From Helicobacteraceae bacterium (GTDB taxonomy: Bacteria; Campylobacterota; Campylobacteria; Campylobacterales; Sulfurimonadaceae), in assembly GCA_947498025.1 (NCBI GenBank), contig CANMJR010000002.1, positions 1 through 64,000 on the forward strand: 64,000 nt of DNA, written 5' to 3'. This document shows positions 9,385 through 14,385 of the stretch, piece after piece. Within the stretch, counting starts at the first letter, position 1. Each line of letters starts with the position of its first letter. The notes below the pieces were generated by a model. The model was not told the DNA's origin. It did not search any database and saw nothing but the letters and a program-made list of their open reading frames with translations. The translations under genes and the position numbers were made by a program.

Positions 9385-10260
9385 ATGCAAAAATCACATG
9401 ACACAATAGCCCGACGATTAGCTCTTATTTTGACAAAGTTCAATGGAGCTGAAAGCTTTACAGCTAATGAACTCGCCCAAGAGTTTGGCGTATCTCTTAG
9501 AACTATTCAAAGAGATTTAAATTCAAGGCTGTCGTATTTGCCAATCAAAAAAGAGAGTGATTATTACTCTTTAGAAACTTATGCTTTAGGAAAACTGGGT
9601 CTTGAAGATATAAAAAGCTTTGCAGCCATAAGTGGCATAAAAGAGCTTTATCCAGCGCTCACGGATAGTTTTATCATCGATATTTTAAACAGCAAAATCA
9701 ATGCTACTTATCTTGTGAAAAATCATGGGTTTGAGCTTTTGGAATATAAAACAAAAGAGTTTGAACTCCTAATCGTAGCCATACTGCATCATCAACATGT
9801 GGAATTTAGCTACAACGAAAAAAAGAGAGACACGAAGCCCTACAAGCTTGTCAATAACCAAGGGATTTGGTATCTTGTAGCGGATGAAAAACAAGAACTC
9901 AAAACATACAGTTTTAGCAAAATATCTCATCTCAAAATCATAGATAAAAACTTCAAACCAAACGAAGAGTTTGCAAACACTATCAAAAAAAATGAGGCAA
10001 ACTGGTTTTCTCAAACCGTCTTAGAAATCACACTCGAAATAGACAAAAGCGTAGCTGAGTATTTTTTGCGAAGAAAAATACTTCCAAATCAAACCATCTT
10101 AGAACACAATGAAAAAAAACTCGTATTGTCCACAAAAGTATCTTATGAAAATGAGATACTCAGTATTGTACAGTATTGGTTACCTCATATCAAAATCATC
10201 TCACCGACGCATTTGCAAGAAAAACTGCATGATGTATTGCAAAAATATCTCAAAAACTAA
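9385..10260 (+). CDS. WYL-domain transcriptional regulator
   Basis: A 291-residue protein. An N-terminal HTH_11-type helix-turn-helix (about 9-60; NELAQEFGVSLRTIQRDLN) is followed by a WYL domain whose core reads GIWYLVADE near residue 160. WYL proteins bind nucleotides or nucleic acids through this domain and often regulate phage-defence and DNA-damage genes. It is the first gene of the accessory island, 18 bases after the amidase stop and 77 bases before an unknown gene on the same strand. Regulation of the downstream module is inferred from position only. Confidence 0.88.
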   Translation: MQKSHDTIARRLALILTKFNGAESFTANELAQEFGVSLRTIQRDLNSRLSYLPIKKESDYYSLETYALGKLGLEDIKSFAAISGIKELYPALTDSFIIDILNSKINATYLVKNHGFELLEYKTKEFELLIVAILHHQHVEFSYNEKKRDTKPYKLVNNQGIWYLVADEKQELKTYSFSKISHLKIIDKNFKPNEEFANTIKKNEANWFSQTVLEITLEIDKSVAEYFLRRKILPNQTILEHNEKKLVLSTKVSYENEILSIVQYWLPHIKIISPTHLQEKLHDVLQKYLKN

Positions 10261-10337: not shown

Positions 10338-10925
10338 ATGTTACCAGCAGTATTGGGTGGAGTTGCTTTGGCGGCGGTTGGGTATGGTATCAAAAAGTAT
10401 TGCGAAGAAGAGGGATGTTTTTTGGATGAAGATGAAAAAAATAGGTTTTCAAACTCATTAAACAGTGATGATGCTGAGCTTGAAGCAGATATATTGAGAG
10501 AATTTAAAAATGTAAAACTTTCCTTGTATAAAACAACCATTAGAGAAACAGAGTACGCACTTGCGGAAATTCACAATCTTCCTAGAGAAGTCAGACCTCC
10601 AATGCAAGAGCTAAACAGTGATGGAGAACTGACGCACATAGAGCCAACAGAGGAAAATCAAAAAACAATACAAGGGTTTTGTAACATACTCCAAAAAGCC
10701 AAAGATGTACAAGACATGTTTTTACAAAGGCTAGATGCGGTACTTTTAAAATCAAGCGATTACGGCAAGTTTGCAGCAGATGAAAAAGAGAAAGTACAAG
10801 ATGTGTTAATTCTCAACCAAGCCATCTATGAGGCAACACAATTACCTATGACATTTGACGATGCAACCATCAACCGAACTGTAAAAAGAGCGTTTGAAAG
10901 GCTAAACATTCTTGTGAACAACTAG
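10338..10925 (+). CDS. Uncharacterised protein, N-terminal hydrophobic segment
   Basis: I do not recognise this 195-residue protein. The first 20 residues are small and hydrophobic (LPAVLGGVALAAVGYGIKKY), like one membrane-inserted or amphipathic helix. An acidic stretch EEEGCFLDEDEKNRF comes next. The rest is predicted helical and charged. A strong ribosome site (AAGGAG, five bases before the ATG) supports translation. It follows the WYL gene and precedes a small membrane protein, the TerB-like protein and the HNH-like protein. The N-terminal Gly/Ala-rich style resembles that of the TerB-like protein encoded at 11303. Confidence 0.75.
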   Translation: MLPAVLGGVALAAVGYGIKKYCEEEGCFLDEDEKNRFSNSLNSDDAELEADILREFKNVKLSLYKTTIRETEYALAEIHNLPREVRPPMQELNSDGELTHIEPTEENQKTIQGFCNILQKAKDVQDMFLQRLDAVLLKSSDYGKFAADEKEKVQDVLILNQAIYEATQLPMTFDDATINRTVKRAFERLNILVNN

Positions 10926-10930
10926 CTAGC

Positions 10931-11164
10931 ATGATACTTTTCATAGAATTATTTATGGTCGTCGTCATGATTTACTTTATCTACTTCGCAGGTTTCAAAT
11001 TAGAGATAATGAACAAAGCGATTGCAGTTACGGCACTAGTCATGATTTTTTTAGTGATGCCCATTACCATGAAAGCTTTAAGCATTATTTTACTGATGAT
11101 GTACTTTTTTATTAATATGGTTTTGGTGGGAGAGGTGGAGAGTGAGGAGCTAGAAAATATTTAA
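10931..11164 (+). CDS. Small membrane protein of unknown function
   Basis: A 77-residue, almost entirely hydrophobic protein with three likely membrane helices (about residues 2-20, 28-47 and 48-66) and an acidic C-terminus EVESEELENI. It starts five bases after the preceding stop, with no clear ribosome site, so translation may depend on coupling. No family is recognised. The composition and the tight gap argue for a real gene; the weak start signal argues for caution. Confidence 0.6.
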   Translation: MILFIELFMVVVMIYFIYFAGFKLEIMNKAIAVTALVMIFLVMPITMKALSIILLMMYFFINMVLVGEVESEELENI

Positions 11165-11166
11165 AG

Positions 11167-11200
11167 TTGTGATTTTGAGTATAAAAAGTATAAATCACAA
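11167..11200. repeat. Inverted repeat with 9-base arms
   Basis: TTGTGATTT (11167-11175) and AAATCACAA (11192-11200) form perfect arms around a 16-base AT-rich spacer. It sits directly after the stop of the small membrane protein gene and before the G8 tract. It could be a terminator for the first three island genes or a regulator-binding site for the next promoter. No U-run follows, so the operator reading is at least as likely. Confidence 0.5.
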
Positions 11201-11226
11201 AATACTGTTAAATTTAATAAAAATAT

Positions 11227-11245
11227 GGGGGGGGAAATATATAAT
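11227..11245 (+). promoter_or_regulatory. G8 homopolymer and -10 box ahead of the TerB-like gene
   Basis: Eight consecutive G residues (11227-11234) are followed five bases later by a consensus -10 box TATAAT (11240-11245). I saw no other run this long of G or C in the window. The tract would fall in the spacer between -35 and -10 elements. The same G-run is also the start of an in-frame upstream extension (ATG at 11225) of the TerB-like reading frame. Either layout would let slipped-strand changes in tract length alter expression. Confidence 0.55.
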
Positions 11246-11302
11246 CGTGTAGTAACTTTTTTATTAAAAGGTTTGTCAAAAAAATTAATAGTGGAGAACA
11301 AG

Positions 11303-11998
11303 ATGGGTATAGGTAAAATATTAACTTTCGCAGGATTAGGCATTGGAGCAATTGCATTAGCACCTTTTACGGGAGGTGGCTCGATTTTAGGTGCAGCAAC
11401 ATTAGCAGGTTCTTTAGCAGGTGCTGGTGCATTGGCTGTTGGTGCGGGTGTAGTTGGTGCGGGAGTAGGTAAGGTTCTTTCTGACATGGACGATGAAGAA
11501 CGAGCAAAAGAAGAAGCAAAAAATGCGGAGCTAAAATTAAAGGCTGACAAATTAGCACAAGAACTTGCAAAAGCAGTAGAGCAATTTGGAGGAGACAAAG
11601 AGTATTTTAATTTCATCATTGGACTATCAGCTATGGGAATAGCTATGGCAAATGCTGATGGTGAAATAGCTCCAGAAGAAAGAGAAGAACTTGAAGAGTT
11701 TATAGGTGGAATAGCAAGTTCAAACTATCCTGCACATGTAAAAGAATCTATTAAAAATCTTTATGAAAATAAACCAAATTTCAATACTGCTATGACTTAT
11801 TTGGAAAAAATAAATCCTTCGAATTATCAAGGAATTAGAGATGTATTGGAACTTGTTATGTTGGCTGATGGCATTGAACATCCGCAAGAGATTGCTTTTT
11901 TGAAGGCGTTTGATAGTTCTATATCGATGATAGAATATAAGCCTGAAATTGTCGATAATGATAAAATTTTTTTACTTGAAATACAAAGAAAATTGTAA
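11303..11998 (+). CDS. TerB-like protein with Gly/Ala-rich N-terminus
   Basis: A 231-residue protein. Residues about 5-60 are a Gly/Ala-rich hydrophobic stretch (APFTGGGSILGAATLAGSLA), followed by a charged helix and then a TerB-like helical domain (about 105-170; SAMGIAMANADGEIAPEERE) with the acidic D-G-E-I motif typical of the fold. TerB-like domains occur in tellurite resistance, stress and phage-defence systems. The start at 11303 is chosen for its ribosome site GTGGAG at 11291-11296. An in-frame ATG at 11225 would add 26 residues starting within the G8 tract. A perfect hairpin follows the stop. Confidence 0.8.
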   Translation: MGIGKILTFAGLGIGAIALAPFTGGGSILGAATLAGSLAGAGALAVGAGVVGAGVGKVLSDMDDEERAKEEAKNAELKLKADKLAQELAKAVEQFGGDKEYFNFIIGLSAMGIAMANADGEIAPEEREELEEFIGGIASSNYPAHVKESIKNLYENKPNFNTAMTYLEKINPSNYQGIRDVLELVMLADGIEHPQEIAFLKAFDSSISMIEYKPEIVDNDKIFLLEIQRKL

Positions 11999-12026
11999 AT
12001 GAAGATGGCATTTTTGCCATCTTCAT
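11999..12026 (+). terminator. Hairpin after the TerB-like gene
   Basis: Perfect 12-base arms (ATGAAGATGGCA and its complement) around a TTTT loop start at the last base of the stop codon. It is most likely an intrinsic or partial terminator separating the TerB-like gene from the HNH-like gene, though no long U-run follows. Confidence 0.6.
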
Positions 12027-12043
12027 TCATTAAAAACTAAGAT

Positions 12044-13848: not shown

Positions 13849-14127
13849 TTATTTATCAATCCATTTAAAAATATCAAGAATTGAAATTCGATTGTTTTCT
13901 ATTTCTACGAGATAAATTATTGTGTAACCTTTAAAAATCATATCTCGAACATTTTCATTTTCAGTATGAACAGATGGTCGAAATTTATAGGGAAAGTTTG
14001 CTAAATTGTTGATTTTATTGTCTATTTGGCTTCTAAAGTCTAAAGCTCTGTTTTTACTATCTTTTGAGATGTAAGAGAGTATGTTTTTAAGTGAATCTAA
14101 ATATTCCTTTTTGCGTACAATTATCAT
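13849..14127 (-). CDS. ParE/RelE-type toxin
   Basis: A 92-residue protein with the ParE/RelE layout: two N-terminal helices (YLDSLKNILSYISKDSKN), a segment ending NFPYKFRPS, and C-terminal strands with VRDMIFKGYTIIYLVE and a final ISILDIFKW. ParE relatives inhibit gyrase and RelE relatives cleave mRNA on the ribosome; the sequence does not settle which. The ATG directly abuts the stop of the upstream gene (TAAATG), the usual antitoxin-toxin order. Cytosolic. Confidence 0.82.
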   Translation of the reverse strand: MIIVRKKEYLDSLKNILSYISKDSKNRALDFRSQIDNKINNLANFPYKFRPSVHTENENVRDMIFKGYTIIYLVEIENNRISILDIFKWIDK

Positions 14128-14385
14128 TTACAAGGTCTTCATAAATTCATCTATCTCTTTATCATATTCTTTTTGATTTAATAGTATCACATCACCTGTT
14201 TTTATATCTTGGAGTGATTTTGCAACTCTTTTTTTTGCTTCTTCTTTTGAAATAGCAGGATAACCGTCATCTAAAGAAAGTTTCACAAAGTTTATAAAAT
14301 CATTGACTAAACTTTGCGTGTCGCTACCATACTTTGAAGCTATAAAATTTTCTATTTCCGGATTATTAATTTGGATGGTTTGCAT
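14128..14385 (-). CDS. Antitoxin of the ParE/RelE-type pair
   Basis: An 85-residue, acidic, helical protein encoded directly upstream of the toxin. The N-terminal QTIQINNPEIENFIASKYG resembles short plasmid-type antitoxins, and the C-terminal half has the extended helix that usually wraps the toxin. No clear ribbon-helix-helix could be confirmed by eye. A palindrome overlapping the -10 box lies 23 bases upstream and fits autoregulation by the toxin-antitoxin complex. Confidence 0.78.
   Translation of the reverse strand: MQTIQINNPEIENFIASKYGSDTQSLVNDFINFVKLSLDDGYPAISKEEAKKRVAKSLQDIKTGDVILLNQKEYDKEIDEFMKTL

Follow-up and report, generated by a model that had tools for sequence, protein, structure and literature searches.

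A run of eight G residues occupies the spacer of a predicted promoter ahead of a TerB-like gene and a gene matching the candidate defence protein PDC-M40B, within the 64,000-nucleotide stretch of DNA analysed here (the window; Table 1). Judging from the sequence, we consider it about evenly balanced whether this G8 is a slippage-prone homopolymer whose length tunes transcription of the two genes, and tuning of promoter strength through spacing is the best reading of the locus. More tentative is a joint proposal, possible but rather unlikely to hold in full, that the WYL regulator, 195-aa, TerB-like and M40B genes form an anti-phage cassette tuned stochastically by the spacer poly-G tract and that the site exemplifies a broader class in Campylobacterales (TTTAAG, 11 to 13 nt, G8-10 and TATAAT, before chemoreceptor, sensor and surface-protein genes).

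Table 1. Features of the poly-G promoter and its neighbouring genes, in window coordinates (G021, nearest relative carrying the gene)
Feature	Position	Strand	Basis or remark
WYL-domain transcriptional regulator (HTH_11 + WYL + WCX)	9385..10260	+	Pfam and PADLOC matches
195-aa cassette gene, conserved N-terminus MLPxxLGGVALAAVGYGIKKYC	10338..10925	+	Homologues in other cassettes
77-aa small membrane-type ORF	10931..11164	+	Among the genomes compared, only in G021 and the source genome (G000)
9-bp perfect inverted repeat, TTGTGATTT / AAATCACAA, upstream of the promoter	11167..11200	+	One mismatch in G021
TTTAAT, −35-like, 5/6 of Campylobacter TTTAAG	11213..11218	+	Element and spacing the same in G021
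Upstream ATG overlapping the G8 tract	11225..11227	+	Judged not a used start; without ribosome-binding site
G8 tract in promoter spacer	11227..11234	+	Run counts; G9 at the orthologous G021 site
TATAAT, −10 element	11240..11245	+	Conserved in G021
TerB-like protein, 231 aa, glycine-rich N-terminal segment	11303..11998	+	Pfam TerB 1e-5
PDC-M40B candidate defence protein (PADLOC), 544 aa	12120..13754	+	PADLOC E 9.6e-74

Checked against the sequence, the positions that the earlier note had given for the tract, the TATAAT box, the upstream ATG and the gene start at 11303 were all correct; G8 and TATAAT are 5 nt apart, and the tract is indeed the longest G or C run of the window, the next longest being 5. 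TATAAT occurs 41 times on the + strand of the window and is therefore weak evidence by itself; by chance, one would start no more than 13 nt from a given point in ~0.8% of cases. The −35 matches the Campylobacter consensus TTTAAG at 5/6 positions and is not of the TTGACA type, and the TTTAAT-21-TATAAT arrangement surrounds the G8, so that by sequence the tract has both promoter elements at its sides, as in porA-type promoters. Promoters of Campylobacter jejuni have a −35 of TTTAAGTnTT and a −10 of TATAAT with 15-19 bp between them (PMC3824568); in that way of counting, the spacer here is 17. A 5/6 match 20-22 nt away also accompanies about 3.5% of TATAAT sites taken at random from the source genome, so the −35 is suggestive rather than proven. 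Distances from TTTAA[GT] to the −10 had no clear peak at 21 nt in G000 when exact hexamers were required. An E. coli-type −35 was also considered and rejected, the best TTGACA match upstream of TATAAT being 4/6, at a spacer of 20. Among 14 long G000 tracts examined, the one before the TerB-like gene is alone in having the −35/tract/−10 arrangement.

Among relatives carrying the gene, the nearest is Sulfurimonas sp. RIFCSPLOWO2_12_36_12 (G021; MIBZ01000018.1), whose TerB-like protein is 91% identical. It shares its genus with the window, which therefore derives from a Sulfurimonas (Campylobacterota). At the orthologous site it carries G9, one of two tracts of at least 8 in that genome; the other, a G10 (L059:1501-1510; G021:C41:30870-30879), precedes a gene for a porin-like outer-membrane protein. 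The two spacers align without gaps (ATGGGGGGGG in G000 and GGGGGGGGGT in G021), so the total spacing is unchanged at 21 nt and the difference between 8 and 9, taken from one assembly per species, is explicable by substitutions at the tract edges. Identical spacing in both species argues for selection on that distance, as would be expected of a promoter. The more distant cassettes (G055, L035-L039 and G101) had no G/C run of at least 6 in the stretches examined, and no relatives were found on plasmids or in viral contigs.

Long G-runs are in clear excess in this genome. Across 863 kb of G000, G/C runs number 1158, 171, 14 and 1 at lengths 4, 5, 6 and 7, then rise again to 3, 1, 1 and 1 at lengths 8, 9, 11 and 14, giving 6 runs of at least 8 against 0.25 expected by extrapolation from the ratio at length 5. 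The homopolymer is thus commoner and longer than chance in its genome, as in contingency loci, and the whole G000 genome has 17 tracts of at least 8. In a LamG-type secreted-protein gene (L005:1444-3007; G000:C2:74607), a G8 lies within the signal-peptide region; the reading frame is broken at 33 aa with G8, extends to 521 aa with G7, and also exceeds 520 aa with G10. Similarly, a G11 splits the frame of a 7TMR-type sensor kinase (L013; G000:C6:69540-69550) to 126 aa, and G9 or G12 would give a single frame of about 618-619 aa. By their sequences, both tracts have the form expected of frameshift phase variation. The excess of runs of at least 8, together with at least two tracts that split genes, indicates that the genome carries contingency-type tracts. 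The earlier note's assignment of the G8 to this type accordingly gains indirect support, from the G-run excess, the split genes elsewhere and the G9 kept in the closest relative. Some other G000 tracts are intergenic, for example a G14 before a lipoprotein-like gene. Tracts of 9 and 10 at L018 and L027 (G000:C9:16315 and G000:C34:5680) adjoin similar sequence, the pieces CTCGAAAAA and CGTAGCTT, as if one intergenic element were repeated.

G-tracts in a comparable position recur in the genus and the order. In 135 Sulfurimonas genomes, the pattern TTTAAGN{6,20}GGGGGGG was found at 32 distinct sites spread over 26 genomes; the reversed control gave 10 match rows in 9 genomes, an upper bound on its hits. 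The gap from TTTAAG to the G-run is 11-13 nt at 21 of 26 sites examined, the runs are mostly 8-9 long, and a start codon often follows ~35 nt beyond. Across Campylobacterales, TTTAAGN{9,15}G8 matched in 66 of 399 genomes. At 57 genus and order sites examined, TTTAAG most often lies 21 nt from a 5/6 −10, and the genes behind such sites include those for chemoreceptors, sensors and outer-membrane-like proteins. We had considered a sigma-28 reading of the TTTAAG sites and dropped it, since the −35 published for C. jejuni is TTTAAGTnTT. On this sequence evidence, Campylobacterales seem likely to have a class of promoter-level poly-G tracts, and the TerB-like promoter fits its geometry with TTTAAT replacing TTTAAG; G000 itself has no TTTAAG-G7 site. 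When the −10 was used as the anchor, G7 near TATAAT was not enriched in 100 Sulfurimonas genomes (10 distinct forward sites against ~9 control hits), and for G8 followed by 1-12 nt and TATAAT, 135 genomes held 18 distinct forward sites, the control giving 10 match rows. Individual sites from Sulfurimonas and Campylobacterales (L125-L150 and L155-L184) have G8-10 runs 11-13 nt past TTTAAG, a short way ahead of a TATAAT-like box. Orthologous chemoreceptor promoters of three Sulfurimonas species (L064, L045 and L046) carry G8, G8 and G10 before TATAAT.

The earlier note had offered, as a second mode of switching, the movement of the ATG at 11225 in and out of frame with the gene; this is not supported. 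Translation from 11225 would give the TerB-like protein a 26-residue extension at G8 (or G5 or G11), and in G000 these are indeed the only lengths that leave the frame into the gene open. In G021, however, TAA TAG stands four codons before the gene, in the gene's own frame, whatever the tract length, and the leader between 11235 and 11302 differs between the two species by frame-breaking one-base indels, not divisible by three. Where the alignment covers the N-termini of homologues, these start with MGxGK and coincide with 11303, which is preceded by GGAG at ~8 nt, whereas 11225 has no ribosome-binding site. The tract thus lies outside any conserved reading frame, and a translational switch is very improbable.

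Three other accounts compete with spacing-dependent tuning. The tract could be a static part of the promoter spacer, its position and the 21-nt spacing selected and its length changing at no biologically useful rate. This would accord with a net spacing that is the same in G000 and G021 although the tract edges differ, and with G8 being rather short for a tract that slips, which counts against slippage. On the other hand, runs of at least 8 are clearly in excess in G000 and others of them split genes; moreover, a spacer needs no G-run, and the distant cassettes do without one. We regard a static element as doubtful, though by no means negligible. A G-run due to chance or to assembly error, with no function, is improbable: the locus comes from a single assembly and homopolymer lengths are error-prone, but only 0.25 such runs are expected in 863 kb, and the independent G021 assembly, with its G9 at the orthologous site, largely refutes this account. 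Quite improbable, too, is action in RNA, in which transcripts reading through from the upstream genes would carry the tract and be bound there by a C-rich small RNA, on the model of RepG and the tlpB leader of Helicobacter pylori. Such regulation is established in the same phylum (PMC8295292), and terminator prediction gave nothing in the interval from the 77-aa ORF to the TerB-like gene. Against it, a transcript driven from TATAAT would start downstream of the tract and so lack it, and the inverted-repeat hairpin of G000 is not kept in G021. That inverted repeat, which folds in G000 and loses the fold in G021, was itself rejected as a terminator, the fold being weak and absent in the relative; it is a possible operator.

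Under promoter-strength tuning, RNA polymerase would use TTTAAT-21-TATAAT, and replication slippage would add or remove one G. A gained or lost G would move the spacing off its conserved value and so raise or lower transcription of the TerB-like gene and the PDC-M40B gene, together probably an anti-phage module; the WYL regulator would probably act on top of the spacing effect. The expected effect is graded and not all-or-none. Of the promoter-spacing mode proposed in the earlier note, the form stands, with TTTAAT-21-TATAAT in both species and spacer G-tracts recurring in genus and order. The on/off switching that it attached to this mode is less favoured: by the C. jejuni figures, a one-base change would more likely tune strength than silence the promoter and, as C. 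jejuni spacers range from 15 to 19 bp, may matter little.

The genes behind the promoter belong to a recurrent cassette. TerB-like homologues are present in Campylobacterota, and in each of the eight homologous cassettes in which M40B was found, it follows the TerB-like gene. The WYL regulator and the 195-aa gene are usually near this pair; in several Campylobacterota the regulator is close to both genes of the pair, and homologues of the 195-aa gene are next to the TerB-like gene in G021, G055, L035, L036 and L038. A search of Pfam and PADLOC with the 195-aa protein returned no family above cut-off. The PDC-M40A partner had no match in G000, G021 or G055 at E values up to 1, so the cassette is not the two-part system defined by PADLOC. 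Because of the PDC-M40B match and the conserved cassette with its WYL regulator, the promoter may serve a defence system. Regulators of the WYL type from the BrxR family are frequent neighbours of phage-defence systems, and inverted repeats are bound by BrxR (PMC9122601). Two further features were observed nearby. A 15-pair stem-loop (11996-12029), directly past the TerB-like stop and before M40B, could weaken read-through into M40B. Beside the cassette, on the − strand, is a ParE-type toxin gene (13849-14385; Pfam 1.4e-11), and the small gene upstream of it is probably its antitoxin.

Control by poly-G tracts in promoter spacers is established for porA and tp0126 (PMC7864442). In Neisseria meningitidis porA, the tract likewise lies between the −35 and the −10, and its length sets the spacing and hence transcription (PMC7864442); here, in contrast, the −35 is of Campylobacter type, the gene is part of a candidate defence cassette rather than coding for a porin, and both length variation and its effect are predictions from sequence. 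Treponema pallidum tp0126 and tprE/G/J have promoter poly-G tracts of about 8, and that of tp0126, between the −35 and the −10, works best at 17-nt spacing (PMC7864442). Those promoters are from another phylum, serve outer-membrane proteins and were tested with reporters, and the related tprL tract overlaps the −10. Phage defence under a G-tract is known from Streptomyces coelicolor Pgl, which is switched by a tract of 8/7 in pglX (PMC4365076); there the tract is inside pglX rather than in a promoter spacer, and defence is proven for Pgl whereas it is predicted here. In Helicobacter pylori, of the same phylum, tlpB has a variable G-repeat upstream of the gene and is under graded control (PMC8295292), but that repeat is in the mRNA leader and is read by a small RNA. 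As for PADLOC PDC-M40, the 544-aa gene strongly matches PDC-M40B, whereas G000 has no PDC-M40A and the partners are instead the TerB-like gene, the 195-aa gene and the WYL regulator. The site would join the promoter-spacer poly-G tracts, and what it controls would be a candidate defence cassette. The literature on Sulfurimonas, in the part available to us, held no paper evidently about phase variation.

If tuning through the spacer is correct, a candidate phage-defence cassette would be expressed heterogeneously across a population of Sulfurimonas, an environmental genus, as a form of bet-hedging. Such bet-hedging is best known from the surface antigens of pathogens. The finding would also point to a class of promoter-level poly-G tracts in the order, whose members could be catalogued from genomes and examined in reporter assays.
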